From Methylobacterium sp. FF17 (GTDB lineage: Bacteria; Pseudomonadota; Alphaproteobacteria; Rhizobiales; Beijerinckiaceae), in contig NZ_CP107532.1 in NCBI RefSeq assembly GCF_025813715.1, positions 3,116,001 to 3,180,000 of the forward strand: a stretch of DNA of 64,000 nucleotides, read 5' to 3'. The notes under the pieces are model-generated. The model did not search any database, was not told the origin of the DNA, and was given only the letters and a program-made list of their open reading frames with translations. Both the position numbers and the translations under genes were made by a program. Positions 1 through 44,188 of the stretch are shown in pieces (the first letter of the stretch is position 1; each line of letters starts with the position of its first letter).

Positions 1-394
1 GAACATCCATCGCATCTGGAGCATCAGGCGACATGGTGCGTTCAAAGCAGTCTCGTACGCGACCGCTCCGGTTTCGACGTAGCGTCATACGGAATCTGCG
101 CAATCATATCCGGTTTGCTCTGGTCGAATTGCTGATCCTGATAGGATCGCACATGGTCTCGATCTTTTTTGAGAAATATTGATTTGATAAAGCGATCAGA
201 TTGACATCAATTAACATCACGACTAAAGGTTACGGCGAATGCTCCGCCAAAACCATCGCCGGTCGCGCCGCCACGCTCACGCCGATCTACCTGTTGGGTG
301 TTTTCCTAATGCTTTGAAGATTATAGATTATTAACATCGTTAAAGTAAATCGATTATTTGTGTATATCCACCTGGGCTTGGGAGATTATTTGAC
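1..394. other. Non-coding stretch upstream of manC
   Basis: I recognise no gene here. Short open stretches exist but none has a start with a ribosome-binding site or a recognisable motif. The last 100 bases are AT-rich and probably carry the manC promoter. A GGGAG at 380-384 lies about ten bases before the manC start codon. Confidence 0.5.
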
Positions 395-1825
395 GTGTGT
401 GAAGTGATTGCTTCAATCCATCCCGTCATTTTATGCGGTGGATCGGGCACCCGGCTGTGGCCGGCCTCGCGCGAGAGCATGCCCAAGCAGTTCACCCGGC
501 TCGTCAGCCTCGAATCCTCGACCTTCCAGGACACCGCACGGCGCCTCGCGGATGCCGACGTGTTCGAGCGGCCCTGCGTGCTCACGAGCAGCGATGCCCG
601 CTTCATCGTCGCCGAGCAACTCGCGGAGATCGGCATCGACGCCGACATCATCCTGGAGCCGGAGCGGCGCGACTCGGCGGCCGCCGTGGCCGTGGCGACC
701 CTCCACGCGGCGCGACGCGACCCGCGGGCGGTGGTGCTGATCCTCGCCGCCGACCACGTCATCGGGGACACGCCCGCCTTCGTGGAGGCCGCGCGCCATG
801 CCGCCGCCGGCGCGCGGGCCGGACAGATCATGACGCTCGGCATCACCCCGACCGCGCCGGCCACCGGCTACGGCTACATCCGCGTGGGTACTGCCCTCGA
901 AGGCGCCTCGGGCAATCACCGGGTCGAGCGCTTCGTGGAGAAGCCGGACCGGGCCGGGGCCGAGCGCCTGATCGCCGAGGGCGCCCTGTGGAATTCCGGC
1001 TACTTCCTGTTCCGCGCCGACGTGATGCTGGCCGAACTGGAAGCCCACGTTCCCGAGATCCTCGCCGCGACGCGGGCGGCGCTCGACGGCGCGGTGCGCG
1101 ACCTCGACTTCGTTCGCCTCGATGCCGCCGCCTTCGGGCGGGCGCCGAAGACCTCCATCGACTACGCGGTGATAGAGCGCACCGAGCGGGCGGGGGTGCG
1201 TCCCGTCGCGTTCCCCTGGTCCGATGTCGGCACCTGGGACGCGGTCTGGGCCGTGCTGCCCCACGACGCGGAGGGCAACGCCCTGCGCGGCCGGGTGGAA
1301 GCGCTCGATACGCGGGGCAGCCTGATCCACAGCGAGGGCGAGCACCTGACCACCGTGGTCGGCCTCGACGACGTCGTGGTGGTGACCACCGCCGACGCGG
1401 TGCTGGTGACCTCGAAGGCGCGGGCGACCCAGGTCAAGGACCTCGTCACGCGCCTGCGCGAGAAGGCCCATCCGGAGGCGGACGCGCATCGGCGCATGTA
1501 CCGCCCCTGGGGCTGGTACCAGCGCATCGACATCGGCGAACGCTTCCAGGTGAAGCGCATCCTGGTGACGCCGGGCGGACGGCTCTCGCTTCAGAAGCAC
1601 TACCACCGCGCCGAGCACTGGGTGGTGGTCAAGGGCACGGCGGAGGTCACGCTCAACGACGCGGTGGTGCTGGTCCACGAGAACGAGGCGATCTACCTGC
1701 CCATCGGCTCGATGCACCGCCTCACCAACCCGGGCAAGATTCCCCTCGAACTCATCGAGGTGCAGGTGGGCTCCTATACCGGCGAGGACGACATCATCCG
1801 CGTCGAGGACATCTACGGGCGCTAG
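395..1825 (+). CDS. manC: Mannose-1-phosphate guanylyltransferase / mannose-6-phosphate isomerase
   Basis: Makes GDP-mannose from mannose-1-phosphate and GTP; the C-terminal cupin domain of this two-domain family can also isomerise fructose-6-phosphate to mannose-6-phosphate. It acts in the cytoplasm and feeds polysaccharide synthesis. The nucleotidyltransferase signature GGSGTRLWPASRESMPKQF lies at about residues 15-33, FVEKPD near 179 and WNSGYFLF near 199. The last ~110 residues form the cupin domain with QKHYHRAEHWVVVKG. At 476 residues it is full length for the family. The start is GTG at 395, with GGGAG ten bases upstream; a second GTG at 404 is possible. GC content is high, unlike the AT-rich sugar genes further into the island. 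It ends about 40 bases before an IS5-type element, so any downstream operon partner has been displaced. Confidence 0.93.
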   Translation: MCEVIASIHPVILCGGSGTRLWPASRESMPKQFTRLVSLESSTFQDTARRLADADVFERPCVLTSSDARFIVAEQLAEIGIDADIILEPERRDSAAAVAVATLHAARRDPRAVVLILAADHVIGDTPAFVEAARHAAAGARAGQIMTLGITPTAPATGYGYIRVGTALEGASGNHRVERFVEKPDRAGAERLIAEGALWNSGYFLFRADVMLAELEAHVPEILAATRAALDGAVRDLDFVRLDAAAFGRAPKTSIDYAVIERTERAGVRPVAFPWSDVGTWDAVWAVLPHDAEGNALRGRVEALDTRGSLIHSEGEHLTTVVGLDDVVVVTTADAVLVTSKARATQVKDLVTRLREKAHPEADAHRRMYRPWGWYQRIDIGERFQVKRILVTPGGRLSLQKHYHRAEHWVVVKGTAEVTLNDAVVLVHENEAIYLPIGSMHRLTNPGKIPLELIEVQVGSYTGEDDIIRVEDIYGR

Positions 1826-1951
1826 AAGATAGGCAAGATGATCCGATCCTAATATGTCTGGTATTTTGGACTAGGGTGTGAACCGAACCAAGACGTTGCG
1901 AGAGTTCTGGTTTTGTGATTCAGAGCCGCCGTTTGCAGCACGGAGGCGGCG

Positions 1952-2274
1952 ATGGCGGACCTGTTCTGGCCCTCGGATGAGCAGTGGGCGGTGATGGAAC
2001 CGTTCATGCCCAAGAACCAGCCTGGGCCGGAACGGAACGACGATCGGCAGGTCATTTCCGGCATCCTGCACGTGCTGACCTCGGGCTGCCGCTGGCGCGA
2101 CTGCCCGGCAGCGTATGGTCCGCGCACGACCGTCTACAACCGCTTCAATCGCTGGTCCCGCCGTGACTTTTGGCGGGCGATGCTGACCGCGCTGGCCAAG
2201 GGCGGATGGGGTGGCGAGGCGGCCGCCATCGACAGTACCTACGTCAAGTCGCACCGCTCGGCGCATGGCGGTAA
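1952..2274 (+). pseudogene. IS5-family transposase, N-terminal fragment
   Basis: Begins MADLFWPSDEQWAVMEPFMP and carries the usual N-terminal segment of IS5-family DDE transposases, including SGCRWRDCP, and a first catalytic Asp in AAIDSTYVKSHR. The reading frame is cut at HGG by an IS110-type element, and the remaining C-terminal half resumes at 5101. The product cannot be functional. Confidence 0.8.
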
Positions 2275-2289
2275 CGTATGGCCCGCCCC

Positions 2290-2526
2290 GTCCGCAAGTG
2301 GCTGATGATCCGCTGGTCTGAGCAGTCTGCATAAACGTATCCGGCCTTTCGGCGATGCCGTTGGCCAAGATGGAGATCCGCGCGTCCTGGTCCTCATAAA
2401 GGGGGCGGCGTCGAGCGCCATTTTACGCCAGAGGCTTCCAGAACACCGATCGACTGTCAGGCCATCTTCCTCTCGCCGCTCGCAGACATGGTGAGGCCGA
2501 CGAAGGCTTCGCCGACCAAGCTCGGT
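2290..2526 (-). ncRNA. Candidate bridge RNA / seekRNA of IS110-type copy 1
   Basis: This is the non-coding segment between the recombinase stop codon and the adjacent element end, the position where IS1111-subgroup elements encode their guide RNA. It contains AACGTAT at 2334-2340, which repeats the left insertion junction (2273-2279), and CATAAAGGGGG at 2395-2405, which repeats the right junction (5098-5108). Both repeats span element end plus target, as expected for guide segments. Transcription and RNA limits are not visible from sequence; I infer the minus strand from the recombinase orientation. Confidence 0.5.
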
Positions 2527-3555
2527 TCAGGCAGCCACCGCCGCCGGCTCATAGACGCGTTTGTGGCGCAGCAGCGCCCAGACGGTCCGAGCCATCTTGG
2601 CTGCTAGCGCAACGACGGCGGTGTTGGCGTGCGCCCGCGCCAGCAGGCCCCGGAGCCATTGGCCGATCCGCGTATCGCTTTTGCGAAGGGTCGGCATCGC
2701 CGCCCGTGCACCCTGGATCAGCATCTTGCGCAGGTACTTGCTGCCGCGCTTGGTGATGCCGACGAGTTTGGGTCGTCCGCCAGTCGTGACTTGCCGCGGC
2801 ACGAGGCCGAGCCAGGCCGCCAGATCACGCCCGCGGGCGAAGGTGGCCACGTCACCGATCGCCGCAATCAGCGCTGTGGCGTTGAGTGCACCGATGCCCG
2901 GGATGGTGGTGAGCCGGCGAGCACTCTCGTCGGTCCGGGCCTGTTCGGCGAACTCGCCATCGAGCGTTGCGATGCGTTCGTCGAGGGACTGCCAACGTTC
3001 CCGCACGTCGGCCACGAGGCTGCGCATTCGTGGCGTGATGTCCGCGGCGGTGTCGGGATCGAGCAGGGTGTTCAGCCTGGCGGCAAGCTTGGCACGTTCT
3101 TGCGGGACGATGTGGCCACGCTCCAGCAGGATGGCCCGGATCTGGTTCATCAAGGCCGTGCGTTCGCCCACGAGCTGGTCGCGCACCCGGTGCAGAGTCT
3201 GCATGTCGAGCTGCGCTTCCGACTTCAGCGCGACGAACCGCATAGTCGGACGCGTCGCAGCCTCTGCGATCGCCTCGGCGTCACGGTCGTCGTTCTTCTG
3301 GGCCTTGACGTAGGGGCGCACGTATTCCGGCGACATCAGCCGGATGGTGTGGCCTTGAGCGGCGAGCGCCCGGCCCATGTGATGCGCGCCACAGCACGCC
3401 TCCATGGCGATGATGCAAGGTGGAAGCGTCGCGCCAAAGGTCATCACCGTCTCGCGTCGCATCCGGCGTCGCAGGACGACCCGACCGGTCGCATCCTGCC
3501 CGACCACACTGCAGCTGTTCTTGCCCAGATCGATCCCGAGTATCGCAATGGCCAT
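2527..3555 (-). CDS. IS110-family transposase (DEDD recombinase), copy 1
   Basis: A 342-residue IS110-type recombinase. The N-terminal RuvC-like DEDD domain begins MAIAILGIDLGKNSC and includes KNDDRDAEAI. The C-terminal Transposase_20 domain has TIPGIGALNATALIAAIG and TKRGSKYLRKMLIQGA, the latter around the expected nucleophilic serine. I prefer the ATG at 3555 because GGAG lies seven bases upstream; an earlier in-frame codon would add 12 unlikely residues. The protein is identical to the copy at 43118-44146. The element appears coding-intact, but an IS1182-type insertion splits its far end, so this copy may be unable to move. Confidence 0.9.
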   Translation of the reverse strand: MAIAILGIDLGKNSCSVVGQDATGRVVLRRRMRRETVMTFGATLPPCIIAMEACCGAHHMGRALAAQGHTIRLMSPEYVRPYVKAQKNDDRDAEAIAEAATRPTMRFVALKSEAQLDMQTLHRVRDQLVGERTALMNQIRAILLERGHIVPQERAKLAARLNTLLDPDTAADITPRMRSLVADVRERWQSLDERIATLDGEFAEQARTDESARRLTTIPGIGALNATALIAAIGDVATFARGRDLAAWLGLVPRQVTTGGRPKLVGITKRGSKYLRKMLIQGARAAMPTLRKSDTRIGQWLRGLLARAHANTAVVALAAKMARTVWALLRHKRVYEPAAVAA

Positions 3556-3597
3556 CGGTCCGCTCCATCCCTCGTGTGAGCCACACTGCAAACCTAG

Positions 3598-5064
3598 GAG
3601 CCCGTCCGAGTGATCCTCTCGACGGTGAGGCGGGAGGGTGATTCACTTGGCTCATGGCCAAGGTGTTTCGCGCGTGGGATGTTGATCAGGGTTGGCTTTT
3701 GCCGCCCTCGCTGCACGAGTTCGTGCCGCCCGGGCACATGGCACACTTCGTACGCGACACAGTGCGGGAAGCGCTCGACCTCTCGGCCATCCTCGGCACC
3801 TATAGTGAGGAGCGCGGCTACCCGCCCTACCATCCGGGTATGATGGTGGCGCTCCTTCTCTACGGCTACAGCCGCGGCCTGTACTCGTCGCGTCAACTCG
3901 CCAGGGCCTGCGAGGAGCGGGTCGACGTCATGGCGGTGACGGGCCTGAACCGGCCGGACTTCCGCACCATCGCCGACTTCCGCAAGCGCCACCTCGTGGC
4001 CTTGTCCGACCTGTTCGTGCAGGTTCTGCGCCTGTGTCGGGCCGCCGGTCTGGTGCAGTTCGCCCATGTGGCGGTGGACGGCACCAAGGTGAAGGCCAAC
4101 GCCTCCCGTCATAAGGCGATGAGCTACGGACGCATGAAGACGGCCGAGCCCGCGCTGGCTGCCGAGGTCGACGCGTGGTTGGAGCGGGCGCGTGAGGCCG
4201 ATGCGGCCGAGGATGAGGCTCAGGGCCCGGACCGGCGCGGGGACGAGACGCCGGACTGGATGGCCGACAAGCAGCGACGCCTGGAGACGATCCGCGCCGC
4301 TAAAGCCGCCCTGGAAGTGGAAGCGATCGACCCGCCCGACCCCGAGGACGAGAGCGGGCCGGGTGCATCCTCGGGCATGCGCTGGCAGGGGCGGCCCTTG
4401 CGCGGGGAGGACGGCGGTCCGCCCGACCGGGCGCAGCGCAACTTCACCGACCCAGACAGCCGCATCCTGCCGACCCGCGACGGGTTCGTGCAGGGCTACA
4501 ACGGTCAGATCGCCGTCGATGCCGCGCATCAGATCATTGTGGCCCATCGCCTCGTGACGAACGCCTCCGATGCCCGCGCCCTCGTGCCCCTCATCGACGA
4601 CGCCCGCGCTCATCTCGGGCGCAAGCCGTACGAGGTCTCGGGGGATTCCGGTTTTGCCAACGAGGCGAACCTGACCGCCCTGAAGCAGCGCCGGATCGCC
4701 GCTTATCTTGCTCCCGGTCGGGCCCGCCATAGCCAAGCGGATGCGGCCGGTCGTCGGACGCTGACGAAGACGCCCCTGATGCAGGCGATGGCCGCGCGCC
4801 TGAAACGGGCTGGCCGCCGCAGCCGCTATCGCCTCAGGAAGCAGGTCGTCGAGCCGGTGTTCGGGCAGATCAAGCAGGCCCGAGGCTTCCGCCAGTTCTT
4901 ACTCCGGGGCCTCGATCAGGTCCGGGGCGAATGGGCGATGGTCTGCACCGCCCACAACCTTCTCAAGCTGGCAAAGGCAGGGCGATGAGCTCAAAGCCGA
5001 CACACACCTCTGACCAGATCTCGACGCTCAAACCATCCCATAAACTCGTTACTCGGACGGGCTC
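3598..5064 (+). mobile_element. IS1182-type element, copy A
   Basis: 1467 bp bounded by the inverted repeat GAGCCCGTCCGAGT / ACTCGGACGGGCTC and flanked by CTAG on both sides (3594-3597, 5065-5068). The two flanks are contiguous IS110-type sequence, so this copy still sits in its original insertion site. It differs from the other copies by a T at 3626. Confidence 0.92.
3654..4988 (+). CDS. IS1182-family transposase, copy A
   Basis: 444-residue DDE transposase. The N-terminal DUF772-type domain (about 1-130) contains RGYPPYHPGMMVALLLYGYS. Candidate catalytic residues are Asp in VAVDGTKVKANAS (near 142), Asp in VSGDSGFANEANL (near 330) and Glu in EPVFGQIKQARGF (near 399). An acidic, variable insertion (about 180-270) separates the first Asp from the rest of the catalytic core. 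It fills nearly the whole element, and the same protein recurs in copies B, C, D and F. Confidence 0.93.
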   Translation: MAKVFRAWDVDQGWLLPPSLHEFVPPGHMAHFVRDTVREALDLSAILGTYSEERGYPPYHPGMMVALLLYGYSRGLYSSRQLARACEERVDVMAVTGLNRPDFRTIADFRKRHLVALSDLFVQVLRLCRAAGLVQFAHVAVDGTKVKANASRHKAMSYGRMKTAEPALAAEVDAWLERAREADAAEDEAQGPDRRGDETPDWMADKQRRLETIRAAKAALEVEAIDPPDPEDESGPGASSGMRWQGRPLRGEDGGPPDRAQRNFTDPDSRILPTRDGFVQGYNGQIAVDAAHQIIVAHRLVTNASDARALVPLIDDARAHLGRKPYEVSGDSGFANEANLTALKQRRIAAYLAPGRARHSQADAAGRRTLTKTPLMQAMAARLKRAGRRSRYRLRKQVVEPVFGQIKQARGFRQFLLRGLDQVRGEWAMVCTAHNLLKLAKAGR

Positions 5065-5100
5065 CTAGCAGTGAAGCCCAGTGAGGGGCGGGCCATCCAT

Positions 5101-5536
5101 AAAGGGGGGCCTGGAGCCAGGCCATCGGCCGCTCGCGCGGCGGCCAGACGACCAAGATCCACGCGCTCACCGATGTCCTCGGCCGCCCCGGCGTCCTTCT
5201 GCTGACGCCTGGCAACGCCAGCGACGTCACCACCGCCCCAGCCGTAGTCGCCGAGGCTCCCGGTCGGGTCCGTCGCCTAGCTGCCGACAAGGGCTACGAC
5301 GCCGACTGGCTCCGGACCGACCTGCGGGAAAAAGGCATCACGCCGATCAACCCAGGCAAGCGCGGCCGCAAGCGGAAGATCCGCCACGACAAGCGCCGCT
5401 ACCGCGAACGCTGGCGCATCGAGGCGACCCTAATCGCTCCAGGGACTTCCGTCGCATCGCCACCCGCTACGACAAGCTGGCCCGCAACTACGCCTCCGCC
5501 GTTGCGCTCGCCGCCGTCATCGCCTTCCGGTGCTGA
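5101..5536 (+). pseudogene. IS5-family transposase, C-terminal fragment
   Basis: Continuation of the transposase cut at 2274. The frame reads AIGRSRGGQTTKIHALTD and later ADKGYDADWLR, which carry the mid-domain and the second Asp. Near the end, RERWRIEATL shifts frame before RDFRRIATRYDKLARNYAS and the stop at 5536. The frameshift and the split both make it a pseudogene. Confidence 0.75.
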
Positions 5537-5549
5537 TCGAGTCCAGACC

Positions 5550-7346
5550 CTTGGGCGGACGACGGTCTCGTTCGCCGTGGGTGCAGCCGAAAACTCTTCT
5601 ATCGCCGCGATCACCGGCTTGACTGGGGACGAGCTTCTATCGTGCATCGCGTTAAACGATGGTCGGGTAGCTTTGTCCATGGATCGAAGGTCGCTTCTCG
5701 TCAGGCTAACTGCTTCAGCGGTTGGGACCGTGGCCTACACCTTGACGACGAGCACCAACCGCACGTTCTCGATTGCAGTGCCCGCGAACAATGGAGGGAT
5801 CGGCGGCGTCGCGATCAACGCAGCCGGCGCGGCTGGGACCGCATACGAGGGGTACAGCCTCTCGGACGGCATGACCTTCGCCTCGATGCCGTCGTTCGTC
5901 TCGTCTGCGGCCCCCAAGGGCGACCTGTTCGATACGCGTGGTTACCTGCTTCCGGCCGCTGTACAGACGCCGCGCTCGGCTGGCGCCGGCGGTCTCACGC
6001 TCAAGGGCTACGACGTCGGCCCGACCCATCAAGGCTATCTCGATGCCAACCGGGGCCAGCCGGTCGCCTCTTGGCAGGACCTCATCGCCACCGAAGGTAG
6101 CGCTCTCGTCCTCAAGTCTCGCGCGGCTTCGGTCCAGGAGAAGGCGCTGACGGATGGCAAGGACATCTTGTCGGCCATGATCCATACGGGCGGGCGCCTC
6201 GTCTGCCGGCCCCCGTGCATCCTCGAGGCACGCATCCGCCTTGAAGCCGGTGCCGTGATGAACAAAGCATGGCACCCGACGCTGTGGCTGCAGCTCATGG
6301 GCGCGGCCAACTCGCAGTCCAACATCGAAATCGATTGGGAGGCCAACGACGCCTTCCCGCAGACGCTTGCTCCCAACGGCCAGAATTGGACGGGCGGTCT
6401 GTCGACCTCGATCGGGTCCAACGGCGCCAATGACAAGCCCGGCCTCATGGATGGCGGCTGGTACAACGTCGGCTTCCGCCTGCGCGAAGACGGGTTCGAC
6501 TACCTCATCGACGGGGCAATCATCACGTCGAAGGTGTTCAACATGCGGTCCAAGGGCGACCGCGCCGCCTACCTCATGCTGACGAACCACGTCGCCGACT
6601 TCGTTGGGCAGTATTCGCTTCCAGCTTGGACTGCCGCCGGCGCGACGGGCGCCCGCTCCTCGATCGAGTGGCTGCGCATGTGGCGTCAGGCCGGCACCAC
6701 CCACCGCAAGCCGCTCGTCGAGACCGCTGACCTCAAGATGGCGTTCGGCACCACCGCCTCGCGCACTATGCCGTCCCTCGCGGATCAGTTCGGCGACGCC
6801 ACCGTCGCGGAGACCTTCGAGGCCCTGGTGCACGACGTTCTCGCCCCCGGCGGCAACACGGATGGCGGTTGGACCGGCCTGCCTTCGTTCGTCACCCGCG
6901 TCGGCGACACTGTCACCATCGCCAATCCCGACAAGCCGGGCCGGCTCTACTTTGCCCGCGTCGGTGCCAAGGCTGGCGAGACCTGCCGACCGGCGCGCTG
7001 GGTATGCGACGTCGGCCCGAACCTGCGCGGTGGGCCCGAGCTGAACTTCACGACCGGGGTCACACAGATCGACCTCTACCCGATGGCAGACGTCGGCGAC
7101 CTCCTGCCGAAGCGCGTTGCGGTATCCAACCTCCCGGCCGGCGTGACCTACAACCCGGCGACCTTCCTCCTCACGTGGAACGGAGTCACGGCCATCACGC
7201 CGACTGCGGCCTTGATCACGGTGACCAACGCGGTGAGCCAAGTGGTCTCAGGCACCAAAACGCTCAAGCTTGTCTCCAACATCGCACTGCCTGTGGTGGA
7301 CGGTCTGGTTTACTCGATTGACCCCGGGGACGCCGCCAAGCGCTAG
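5550..7346 (+). pseudogene. GH16-like / LamG-like secreted protein, 5'-truncated first segment
   Basis: About 600 codons are open, but the 5' end is replaced by the IS5 element, so no genuine start remains. The centre resembles the concanavalin-A-like fold of GH16 glycosidases: HPTLWLQLM, then IEIDWEAND at about 6320-6346, which fits the E-x-D-x-E catalytic signature, and later WYNVGFRLREDGFDYLIDG, matching the usual strand following the active site. A further region (VFVTRVGDTVTIANPDKPGR-like) may be a carbohydrate-binding or Ig-like module. The end, GLVYSIDPGDAAKR, is the start of a LamG-like domain that continues after an IS630 insertion at 8487. Assignment to GH16 rests on my reading of these motifs and is tentative. 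It probably belonged to the exopolysaccharide locus. Confidence 0.6.
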
Positions 7347-8484
7347 TGCACTGACTCAGACGGATGGTTCAGGGGATCGGCTGACTGCGGCGAGGATGTG
7401 GGTGGCTGGCTTGGTCCAGACGAAGGGTTTGGCGTTCCGGTTGTGCTCGGCGATGTAGCGTTTGATCGCTGCCTACAGGTCGACGACGCCGGTGAAGGAG
7501 CCGCGTCGCAGCCGACGACGGGTCAGCGCTGAGAAGAAGCCCTCGACGGCGTTGAGCCACGAGGCCGAGGTCGGAGTGAAGTGGAAGGTGAAGCCGCGGG
7601 TGCCGGGCGAGCCAGGCGCGTACCTTCGGATGCTCGTGGGTGGCGACGTTGTCGAGGATCGCGTGGATCGCCTTGCCGGGCGGGACGGCACCCTCGACGG
7701 CGTCCCGGCAACCGGATGAACTCACCGTTCCGGTGGCGCTGCATGCAGCGGCCGAGCACGGTGCCCGCCAGGACGTCGAGGGCGGCAAACAGCGTCGTGG
7801 TGCCGTGACGGGTATAGTCGTGGGTCTGGGCGGCGGGATGGCCTGTGGCGAGCGGACGGTCAGGGCGGGTCCGCTCCAGTGCCTGGATCTGGCTCTTCTC
7901 ATCGAGGGACAGCACCACCGCGTGGGCGGGTGGAGCCATGTAGAGGCCGACGACATCCTCGACCTTGGCGGCGAAGGCCGGGTCGCGCGAGCGCTTGAAC
8001 GTGCGCAGTCGATGCGGCTGGAGGCGGTGAGCGTCCCAGATCCGTTGCACGGCGCGCAACGAGTTCCCGACAGCGCGGGCCACGGCACGGCCGGTCCAGT
8101 GCGTGACCTCGCCCGGCGGCTCCGAGCAGGTCAGCGCCAGCACCTCGGCCACCGTCTCGGTCGAATGGGGTGGTGTCCCGGGCGGACGCGTCTTGTCGCG
8201 CAGCAGACCTTCGACGCCCGCCTCGGCGTAGCGCCGCTGCCAGCGCCATACGGCCGGGCGGCTGACGCCCGCCCGCCGAGCGACGTCTTGGACACTCAAG
8301 CGCTCGGCCGAGCGCAGGACGATGCGGGCGCGCTGGGTGTGTTTGAGCGGGCGGGAGCGGTCGCTGGCAATCGCAGCCAGCCGTACCGCGCCGGTCGCAT
8401 CGAGGAGCACGCATACCGTCTGAGCCATTGCCCAGACTCACACGTCTCATCGTCCGCGTGAATCCTCCGTCCGCGTCACTGCAC
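7346..8484 (-). mobile_element. IS630-family element, isoform a (degenerate)
   Basis: 1139 bp flanked by TA dinucleotides within CTAG (7343-7346, and 8485-8486 at the other end). The ends begin GTGCACTGACTCAG and finish CGTCACTGCAC. It interrupts the GH16/LamG-like gene. A related, intact isoform lies at 24955-26091. Confidence 0.85.
7369..8428 (-). pseudogene. IS630-family transposase, frameshifted
   Basis: Starts MAQTVCVLLDATGAVRLAAI and has the N-terminal helix-turn-helix region (QDVARRAGVSRPAVWRWQRR) and the first Asp in SLDEKSQIQALERTRPD. Near 7720 the frame shifts (after EFIRL), and the DDE remainder (NVATHEHPKVRAW, SWLNAVEGFFSALTRRR) is read in another frame. A further amber codon follows VVDL, where isoform c has a glutamine. 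It is therefore inactive, although isoform c could in principle mobilise it. Confidence 0.85.
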
Positions 8485-38510: not shown

Positions 38511-39536
38511 CTACGCGGTGACGGCCGGAGCTCGGTAGATCCCACCCTTCGTCAGAAGGGCCCACGCGATGCGCGCGTTCTTGTTCGCCACAGCTACGAT
38601 GACCAGCATCGGCGGCTTGCGAGCGAGCATTTGGCCGAGCCATGAGTCGGCCGGCACGCCCTTGCGCTTGGCCCAGCGTACCACCGCGCTGGCCGCGATG
38701 ATGAGCAGGCGTCTCAGCGTCCGCTCGCCCATGCGCGAGGTGCGACCCAGGCGCTCTTTGCCGCCGGTCGAGCGCTGCACCGGTGTCAGCCCGACCCAGG
38801 CGGCGAAGTCGCGGCCCGAACGGAACGTCTCAACGGGCGGGGCCAGGGCCTCGATGGCAGTGGCGATCAGCGGACCGATGCCCGGCACGCTCATCAGCCG
38901 CCGTGCCGTATCGTCGGCCTTCGCGCGCGTGGCGATCTCAGCATCCAGGGTTGCGGTCTGCTCCTGCAGATGGCGGAGCGCACAGACGAGAACGGCGAGG
39001 CTGGCGCGGGCGGCTGGAGGAATGTCCGAAGCGGGATCCTCGATCTGCGCGATCAACCGCTCGATATGGGCGGGCCCCTGCGCCGCGATCAGGCCGTACT
39101 CGGCAAGATGGCCGCGGATCGCGTTGATGAGCTGGGTGCGCTGGCCGACCAGCACGTCGCGGGTCCGGAAGATCACCGCGGAGGCCTGCTTGGCTTCGCT
39201 CTTCACGGCAACGAAGCGCATGGTCGGACGCTGCGCGGCCTCGCAGATCGCCTCGGCATCGGCCGCGTCGTTCTTCTGCCGCTTGACGAAGGGCTTCACG
39301 TAGGCAGGCGCGATCAGCTTGACCGTGTGACCGAGCTTGCCGATCTCGCGGCCCCAGTGATGCGCACCGGGGCAGGCCTCCATCGCCACGAGGCAGGGCG
39401 GTTGAGCAGCAAAGAAGGCCAGCACCTGCTCCCGCCGCAGCTTCTTGCGGAAGATCGGCGCACCGGCAGCGTTCGCGCCGTGCGCCTGGAAGACTTTCTT
39501 GGCCAGATCCAGGCCGATGATGCTAACCTCTGTCAC
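38511..39536 (-). CDS. IS110-family transposase (DEDD recombinase), element b
   Basis: 341 residues starting MTEVSIIGLDLAKKVFQAHG. The RuvC-like DEDD domain includes GLDLAKKVF, AMEACPGAHHWGREI and KNDAADAEAI. The C-terminal domain has MSVPGIGPLIATAIEAL and the GERTLRRLLIIAASAVVRWA region holding the expected serine. Only moderately similar to the IS110 protein at 2527-3555. Appears intact. Confidence 0.9.
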   Translation of the reverse strand: MTEVSIIGLDLAKKVFQAHGANAAGAPIFRKKLRREQVLAFFAAQPPCLVAMEACPGAHHWGREIGKLGHTVKLIAPAYVKPFVKRQKNDAADAEAICEAAQRPTMRFVAVKSEAKQASAVIFRTRDVLVGQRTQLINAIRGHLAEYGLIAAQGPAHIERLIAQIEDPASDIPPAARASLAVLVCALRHLQEQTATLDAEIATRAKADDTARRLMSVPGIGPLIATAIEALAPPVETFRSGRDFAAWVGLTPVQRSTGGKERLGRTSRMGERTLRRLLIIAASAVVRWAKRKGVPADSWLGQMLARKPPMLVIVAVANKNARIAWALLTKGGIYRAPAVTA

Positions 39537-42865: not shown

Positions 42866-42880
42866 CGTATGGCCCGCCCC

Positions 42881-43117
42881 GTCCGCAAGTGGCTGATGAT
42901 CCGCTGGTCTGAGCAGTCTGCATAAACGTATCCGGCCTTTCGGCGATGCCGTTGGCCAAGATGGAGATCCGCGCGTCCTGGTCCTCATAAAGGGGGCGGC
43001 GTCGAGCGCCATTTTACGCCAGAGGCTTCCAGAACACCGATCGACTGTCAGGCCATCTTCCTCTCGCCGCTCGCAGACATGGTGAGGCCGACGAAGGCTT
43101 CGCCGACCAAGCTCGGT
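42881..43117 (-). ncRNA. Candidate bridge RNA / seekRNA of IS110-type copy 2
   Basis: Same sequence as 2290-2526. Here the left junction reads AAACGTAT, matching the internal AAACGTAT segment over all eight bases, one more than at copy 1. Confidence 0.5.
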
Positions 43118-44146
43118 TCAGGCAGCCACCGCCGCCGGCTCATAGACGCGTTTGTGGCGCAGCAGCGCCCAGACGGTCCGAGCCATCTTGGCTGCTAGCG
43201 CAACGACGGCGGTGTTGGCGTGCGCCCGCGCCAGCAGGCCCCGGAGCCATTGGCCGATCCGCGTATCGCTTTTGCGAAGGGTCGGCATCGCCGCCCGTGC
43301 ACCCTGGATCAGCATCTTGCGCAGGTACTTGCTGCCGCGCTTGGTGATGCCGACGAGTTTGGGTCGTCCGCCAGTCGTGACTTGCCGCGGCACGAGGCCG
43401 AGCCAGGCCGCCAGATCACGCCCGCGGGCGAAGGTGGCCACGTCACCGATCGCCGCAATCAGCGCTGTGGCGTTGAGTGCACCGATGCCCGGGATGGTGG
43501 TGAGCCGGCGAGCACTCTCGTCGGTCCGGGCCTGTTCGGCGAACTCGCCATCGAGCGTTGCGATGCGTTCGTCGAGGGACTGCCAACGTTCCCGCACGTC
43601 GGCCACGAGGCTGCGCATTCGTGGCGTGATGTCCGCGGCGGTGTCGGGATCGAGCAGGGTGTTCAGCCTGGCGGCAAGCTTGGCACGTTCTTGCGGGACG
43701 ATGTGGCCACGCTCCAGCAGGATGGCCCGGATCTGGTTCATCAAGGCCGTGCGTTCGCCCACGAGCTGGTCGCGCACCCGGTGCAGAGTCTGCATGTCGA
43801 GCTGCGCTTCCGACTTCAGCGCGACGAACCGCATAGTCGGACGCGTCGCAGCCTCTGCGATCGCCTCGGCGTCACGGTCGTCGTTCTTCTGGGCCTTGAC
43901 GTAGGGGCGCACGTATTCCGGCGACATCAGCCGGATGGTGTGGCCTTGAGCGGCGAGCGCCCGGCCCATGTGATGCGCGCCACAGCACGCCTCCATGGCG
44001 ATGATGCAAGGTGGAAGCGTCGCGCCAAAGGTCATCACCGTCTCGCGTCGCATCCGGCGTCGCAGGACGACCCGACCGGTCGCATCCTGCCCGACCACAC
44101 TGCAGCTGTTCTTGCCCAGATCGATCCCGAGTATCGCAATGGCCAT
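43118..44146 (-). CDS. IS110-family transposase (DEDD recombinase), copy 2
   Basis: Identical to the 342-residue protein at 2527-3555. Confidence 0.9.
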   Translation of the reverse strand: MAIAILGIDLGKNSCSVVGQDATGRVVLRRRMRRETVMTFGATLPPCIIAMEACCGAHHMGRALAAQGHTIRLMSPEYVRPYVKAQKNDDRDAEAIAEAATRPTMRFVALKSEAQLDMQTLHRVRDQLVGERTALMNQIRAILLERGHIVPQERAKLAARLNTLLDPDTAADITPRMRSLVADVRERWQSLDERIATLDGEFAEQARTDESARRLTTIPGIGALNATALIAAIGDVATFARGRDLAAWLGLVPRQVTTGGRPKLVGITKRGSKYLRKMLIQGARAAMPTLRKSDTRIGQWLRGLLARAHANTAVVALAAKMARTVWALLRHKRVYEPAAVAA

Positions 44147-44188
44147 CGGTCCGCTCCATCCCTCGTGTGAGCCACACTGCAAACCTAG

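Follow-up and report, generated by a model that had tools for sequence, protein, structure and literature searches.

The element and the interrupted transposase gene

The window, i.e., the whole stretch of 64,000 nucleotides from Methylobacterium sp. FF17 that was analysed, carries near its start an IS5-family transposase gene that is cut in two by an IS1111-type element. This element in turn contains another insertion sequence. The features of the locus are the following:

1952..2274, plus strand: 5' half of the IS5-family (IS427-group-like) transposase that is split by the element, with DUF4096 (PF13340, 1.9e-26)
2273..2274, plus strand: core dinucleotide AA (TT in tnp sense), retained by the target at the element right end
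2275..5102, minus strand: IS1111-type (IS110-superfamily) element, delimited by the pair of subterminal inverted repeats (sTIRs), the ends in relatives and the copy L003
2275..2277: element right end CGT (ACG in tnp sense)
2278..2289, plus strand: sTIR of the right end, ATGGCCCGCCCC
2527..3591, minus strand: DEDD recombinase/transposase ORF, 354 aa from TTG and 342 aa from an inner ATG
3598..5068, plus strand: inner element, presumably IS1182-like, upstream of tnp inside the IS1111-type element (ORF 3654-4988, DUF772/DDE_Tnp_1)
5085..5096, plus strand: sTIR of the left end, GGGGCGGGCCAT
5097..5102: element left end CCATAA (TTATGG in tnp sense)
5103..5536, plus strand: 3' half of the split IS5-family transposase, shifted to -1 with respect to the 5' half

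An initial annotation, made from the sequence of the window, had named the element as IS110/IS1111-type, and the IS1111 identity was borne out by the domains, the sTIR and the ends in relatives. The recombinase matched PF01548 (2.6e-19) and PF02371 (1.1e-22) in Pfam and, of the solved structures, IS621 (chain 8wt6_A, 2.6e-6) and ISCro4 (9t56_A, 9e-5). Its length agrees with the 330-350 aa of the IS1111 family. It contains GLVPRQVTTG, fitting the C-terminal motif GL-P----S(t)G that is given for IS1111 transposases in the available text of PMC11187229. The sTIR is 12 bp long at both ends, within the 11-13 bp of the family, and the terminal extensions, i.e., TTATGG (left) and ACG (right), fit the IS1111 pattern of 7 (or 6) bp on the left and 3 bp on the right. 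As in the IS1111 family, a long non-coding stretch (2526-2290, minus strand) lies 3' of the recombinase stop. Relatives were taken as the best 80 of at least 296 from a scan of named genomes; 72 of them had a recognisable right end, and the right-end sTIR was recovered in 72 of the 80.

The left ends of relatives read LT-TT-ATGG and the right ends ATACG-TT-RT, and the core is therefore TT. The T preceding TT was assigned to the target because this position varies along with the left guide. When joined with a single core, the site has the same length as the uninterrupted copies.

The inner IS1182-like insertion is later than the IS1111-type element. CTAG is duplicated around it (3594-3597 and 5065-5068), and a single CTAG is found in L003, a copy of the IS1111-type element without this insertion, located some 32 kb from it in this genome. 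Having entered the stretch that joins the left sTIR to the recombinase start, the insertion parts the recombinase from the left end and may disable the copy in the window.

The actual target of the element is GGTAAAGGGGGG, also written as GGTAAAGGGGGGCC. The target first predicted, GGTAA-AAAGGGGGG, has two A too many because the shared core AA was counted twice; uninterrupted relatives have three A. Thirty IS5 loci out of a longer match list were compared at this site. Four of these, with that of the window included, are interrupted at exactly this point, 25 have the two halves adjacent, and in one the 5' half could not be aligned. Among the 26 non-interrupted loci, AAAGGGGGG was found in 20 and GG[T/C]AAAGGGGGGC in 17 (hand count). 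The frame across the run was followed in 26 uninterrupted copies with both halves aligned, i.e., the 25 and one from the same genome: it changes by -1 in 23 and by +1 in three, and no copy reads through in frame. Two overlapping ORFs and a conserved frameshift motif are described for the IS427 group of IS5 and the IS407 group of IS3 (PMC3281130, available part). From the frame switch at the run together with the published IS427-group motif, it follows that the element sits in a frameshift window.

Near its end, the IS5 3' half (5103-5536) loses frame again compared with an uninterrupted copy of the same genome.

The predicted guide RNA

Two repeats in the non-coding part of the element had been read as guide segments of a bridge RNA or seekRNA. 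Both are present, i.e., AACGTAT at 2273 and 2334, and CATAAAGGGGG at 2395 and 5098. Within positions 1-6000 of the window, AACGTAT occurs on the plus strand at these two places and nowhere on the minus strand (four plus-strand and two minus-strand occurrences in the whole window), and CATAAAGGGGG occurs at its two places only (three occurrences in the whole window). When the non-coding region was shuffled by dinucleotides, a match as long as the 11 nt at the right junction was reached in 4 of 5,000 shuffles, and one as long as the 7 nt at the left junction in 100 of 5,000. The 11-mer thus clearly exceeds chance, and the 7-mer taken by itself is weak. This weakness agrees with the view that the repeats are chance matches, or leftover copies of the junctions with no guide role, the site being recognised by the protein alone.

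The RNA was delimited from an alignment of 54 sequences and from pair counts. It was rightly placed downstream of the recombinase gene and within 2275-2526, but it is predicted to cover only about 2323-2488 of this interval. Its parts, in the order of the RNA, are the following:

2323..2488, minus strand: predicted bridge RNA/seekRNA with putative boundaries, closed by the stem GUCUGC (2487-2482) / GCAGAC (2330-2325)
2379..2449, minus strand: outer helix of the target loop (helix 3), strands about 2449-2438 and 2390-2379
2421..2429, minus strand: right target guide GGCGUAAAA, complementary to the target top strand
2406..2420, minus strand: apical hairpin of the target loop (helix 5), separating the two target guides
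2398..2405, minus strand: left target guide CCCCCU with core UU; AUG (2397-2395) comes next and runs on into the element left end
2334..2340, minus strand: left donor guide with core, AUACGUU, identical to the element right end ATACG-TT

The two target guides are of opposite polarity, and the complement of the top strand comes first (2429-2421, then 2405-2398), as in IS1111. Of the guide segments proposed initially, the existence of target- and end-recognising segments is upheld by covariation and structure, but AACGTAT is the donor guide plus core and not a target guide. The account with two guides had also overlooked the second target guide at 2421-2429, which pairs with the other target strand. 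That each repeat spans the element end plus target is correct for the left guide, whereas for the donor guide this appearance is explained by the core. A longer copy of the circle junction, i.e., 11 nt at 2330-2340 (ATACGTTTATG), was considered and rejected; as the bases after ATACGTT vary among relatives, only a donor match of 7 nt is claimed.

The non-coding regions of the relatives align around two short variable stretches. In the RNAalifold structure of the 54 sequences, the two target guides form an internal loop, with a 12-pair helix at its base and a 5-pair hairpin at its tip. The whole structure has 30 pairs, with 97.7% of cells paired and 10 pairs changed on both sides. Its covariation is 0.260, against 0.148 when shuffled and at most 0.081 when slid, and the paired cells fall to 29-46% when partners are slid; the structure was derived from the same alignment on which it was counted, and such a structure tends to beat slid versions. 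The outer helix 3 has 12 pairs, eight of them changed on both sides, and the apical helix 5 has five pairs (99.6% of cells paired), two of them changed on both sides; helices 1, 2, and 4 are nearly invariant across the alignment. Folded as a single sequence, the window RNA is not unusually stable (z -0.34; 64 of 200 shuffles as stable), as would also be expected of repeats with no guide role. The structural evidence is comparative only, since the fold is not visible from a single sequence. The Rfam search gave nothing at thresholds and two matches below gathering scores. For a right donor guide, the candidate CCAUC is invariant and also pairs within the RNA; no covariation of it was seen by eye across the alignments of the relatives.

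For IS1111 elements, right-end guide RNAs with target matches and reprogramming have already been published (PMC11187229 and PMC11208160, available parts). The seekRNA elements ISEc11, ISKpn4, ISPst6, and ISPa11 share with the present element an sTIR of 11-13 bp and a long non-coding region downstream of tnp, and the IS1111 seekRNAs likewise carry the top-strand match 5' of the bottom-strand match, make no target duplication and include close relatives with different targets, as far as described in the same text (PMC11187229). The bridge RNA of IS621, of the IS110 group, is alike in its left and right target guides of opposite polarity, placed in an internal loop around a stem loop, in its shared core dinucleotide and in its separate donor guide. 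In IS621, however, the RNA lies at the other element end, the guide order is reversed and the core is CT instead of TT, and its right donor guide has no counterpart found here (PMC11208160 and PMC11208158, in the parts available).

A different role for the RNA was also weighed, i.e., that of a leader or antisense element acting on the expression of the recombinase or of IS5 and not of a guide. The predicted RNA follows the recombinase gene and runs in the same direction, and its stretch complementary to the A/G run could base-pair with the IS5 messenger. However, it matches its own insertion site and the element end, and its order and position are those of the seekRNAs in the available text of PMC11187229. 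A purely regulatory role is considered very improbable.

Guides and flanks among relatives

The comparison of guides with flanks was made on 73 rows, i.e., the 72 relatives with a recognisable right end and the window element; 68 of the rows have a left end. Eight relatives without a recognisable right end (L054, L084, L088, L092, L094, L098, L110, and L131) were left out. Five of the 73 rows have no usable left end, and four have no usable right flank (short or N). The left guide of L115, in which the core reads TTTTT, was set by hand. For the right guide, two adjacent registers were allowed, likewise in the shuffles. The shuffles, to which all results below refer, leave shared ancestry among the relatives in place.

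The left guide was compared with its own left flank in 68 testable rows, giving 43 non-redundant pairs. The mean agreement was 4.54 of 6 positions, against 2.05 when shuffled, and none of 20,000 shuffles was as high. The same holds for the group without a C run (30 pairs, 4.50 against 1.77, 0 of 20,000) and with one row per guide (23 pairs, 4.48 against 1.87, 0 of 20,000). For one row per guide in the group without a C run, positions -6 to -1 matched in 6, 13, 20, 19, 22, and 23 of 23. Within the clade of the window element, the left guide is nearly constant (2,658 of 20,000 shuffles as high) and gives no test there because the variation is too small.

The right guide was compared with the complement of its own right flank in 69 testable rows (66 pairs), with 5.09 of 7 positions against 3.31 and none of 20,000 shuffles as high. 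Inside the clade of the window element, 34 pairs gave 4.94 against 4.15, again with 0 of 20,000. In the window itself, four of six positions of the right target (ACCGCC after the core) agree with the right guide (UACGCC), as counted by hand. When each guide was represented by one row, its own flank was strictly the best match for only 10 of 23 left guides and 7 of 21 right guides.

In every row but L066 (72 of 73), the donor guide is identical to the right end of its own element; the motif hardly varies, and the search pattern fixed 5 of the 7 letters. For this reason, L100 is the informative case: its RNA donor segment and its right end both read ATACATT. The present elements thus show a guide for the donor end together with a natural variant that matches it, while the available text of PMC11187229 describes target matches.

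The initial annotation held that the junctions of other copies should match the guide segments. Among the relatives the flanks follow the guides, and insertion regardless of the guides was not the pattern found; the copies in the same genome are more mixed. Repeats without a guide role would not be expected to follow the flanks across relatives, to lie in an RNA loop with compensatory changes around them, or to change together with the right end as the donor segment does in L100. Chance or leftover repeats are regarded as extremely improbable.

Six further RNAs of this kind have been predicted, three each for IS110 and IS1111, i.e., ISPpu10, ISAar29, ISHne5, ISCARN28, ISAzs32, and ISPa11 (PMC11208160, Extended Data Fig. 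10). They likewise have target- and donor-matching loops, and those of the IS1111 group lie in the right end. In the part of PMC11208160 available, the six were inspected singly, whereas guide-flank covariation across one subfamily is presented here.

Targets of the subfamily and proposed working

In the window element and in much of its clade, the guides read as the complement of AAAA(A)GGGG, the frameshift run within IS5/IS427-like transposase genes. In a tree of 66 proteins, a single branch (100/98) separates the 36 C-run guides from all others, and A-run guides and other guides changed at least four times each, as counted by supported branches. The right guide ends in four or more A in 34 of 45 distinct guide pairs.

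Among the relatives, the insertions lie in A/G or A runs of IS5-type, IS630-like, and HTH_Tnp_1 genes or, in a few cases, in terminator-like hairpins. Judged by the 3' half, the interrupted or flanking genes are IS5-type in 20 relatives and belong in eight to a set with DDE_3, which we take from this domain to be IS630-like; HTH_Tnp_1 genes also occur among them, e.g., in L111. Pfam scans of the flanks covered 128, 135, and 56 segments, i.e., 319 of 412, in all reading frames; they show which families are present and not at which locus, and antisense or shadow frames make up many of the segments. A scan of another ten flank ORFs gave a hit for two.

The frame was called by paralogue scores at the 32 interrupted loci that have paralogues for both halves, the remaining 36 of 68 loci having no paralogue on both sides. 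The frame changes by -1 in 21 of the 32 and by +1 in nine, and two are in frame; some calls are weak, e.g., that of L114. Without two identical copies, 30 interrupted loci remain, seven of them +1.

Three relatives (L078, L119, and L123) are inserted in an A run followed by a GC hairpin and a T run, which resembles a bidirectional terminator by a simple terminator test. L062 and L072 look terminator-like by eye but fail this test and were left out of the count.

The insertion into frameshift windows could be incidental even for an RNA-guided IS1111-type element, if guides favour A/T runs and transposase genes are over-sampled. A TT core with an oligo-T flank would be structurally convenient, and nested elements would outlast insertions in host genes. 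The three insertions in terminator-like A-run hairpins fit such a reading, as do the 11 of 45 distinct guide pairs without a run of at least four A at the right guide end, and flanks of some other relatives that match non-transposase families, e.g., citrate synthase or transporters (beside the element, with the gene not necessarily cut). On the other hand, the guides in much of the window's clade spell GGCG-N-AAAA-GGGG, which includes coding bases beyond the run, and the right guides follow the flank even inside this clade (34 pairs). Moreover, the frame switches at the site in 30 of the 32 interrupted loci with testable frames, 36 loci being outside the test. Incidental insertion is rated as rather unlikely.

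On the evidence of the ends, the core, the guide segments, the loop structure, the guide-flank covariation, and the target as a frame-switch site, all read from sequence, it is very likely that the element is an RNA-guided IS1111-type element with target and donor guides and a TT core, aimed at the frameshift run of an IS5/IS427-like transposase. In the proposed working, an RNA of about 166 nt would be transcribed 3' of the recombinase gene, from the same strand, and would load onto the recombinase. The right guide, which comes first, and the left guide would face each other across the internal loop and read both target strands, and the donor guide would read the element right end. The recombinase would then swap strands at the shared TT core, converting LT-TT-RT into LT-TT-[element]-TT-RT, so that nothing but the core is duplicated. 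The AUG that follows the left guide and continues into the element left end may help the exchanged strand settle, by analogy with the handshake pairing of IS621 (PMC11208158, available part). The frameshift signal would be hit because its sequence is constrained.

More broadly, it is moderately likely that the relatives form a subfamily of RNA-guided IS1111-type elements in Alphaproteobacteria, specialised on the frameshift windows of other insertion sequences (IS5/IS427-like, IS630-like, and HTH_Tnp_1), which has re-aimed its guides several times. The same reading, in which the elements are predators of other insertion sequences, also holds that frameshift signals would be among the few sequences that are strongly constrained, recurring and neutral to the host, and that re-aiming would take place among frameshift sites, similar-looking terminator hairpins, and other sites.

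The IS1111 seekRNA elements in the available text of PMC11187229 target attC, REP, or a short linear site, whereas the element here targets a transposase frameshift window. Known IS1111-family elements, as far as the sources available describe them, also target another mobile element, but there the target is a terminal repeat and here it is a recoding signal inside a transposase gene. The machinery is of a known kind. In the open-licence literature searched, no account turned up of an element that aims at frameshift windows in other insertion sequences, which is not proof of absence. The relatives make up a fairly large natural collection of IS1111-type guides that have been re-aimed and whose targets can be read; in it, the target guides, the donor guide, and the TT core of the IS1111 group are visible from sequence alone. 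They could aid in understanding IS1111-type recombinases and in testing them as tools. An ecological rule is also suggested, i.e., that an RNA-guided mobile element aims at the recoding signals of its competitors.

Other copies lie in the same genome. The IS5 half-gene with the nested element is found at three places (window 1894-5560, L133, and L134) with different outer flanks, and in one of these three copies the IS5 3' half differs and carries a G7 run. The nested element may move with IS5 or be re-inserted, and the three copies may stem from one insertion and not from independent events. A second copy in the window (42867-44185) has lost its left end beyond an IS1182-like insertion at the same CTAG. 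Its right flank agrees with L155, an uninterrupted relative from a different IS5 subgroup that reads AAAAAGGGGGG (A5G6 run), and fits the right guide at only three of six positions by hand count. Copies L005 and L007 are incomplete. Fragments at about 38857-38955 (L014) and 39193-39439 (L008) of the window are about 71% identical to the coding part of the element and are possibly another IS110-type copy.

Two neighbouring loci of the window were also noted. On the minus strand at 7369-8428, two overlapping ORFs resemble an IS630-type transposase split over two frames (family by eye). On the plus strand at 395-1825, an ORF resembling mannose-1-phosphate guanylyltransferase (name by eye) adjoins the IS5 copy.
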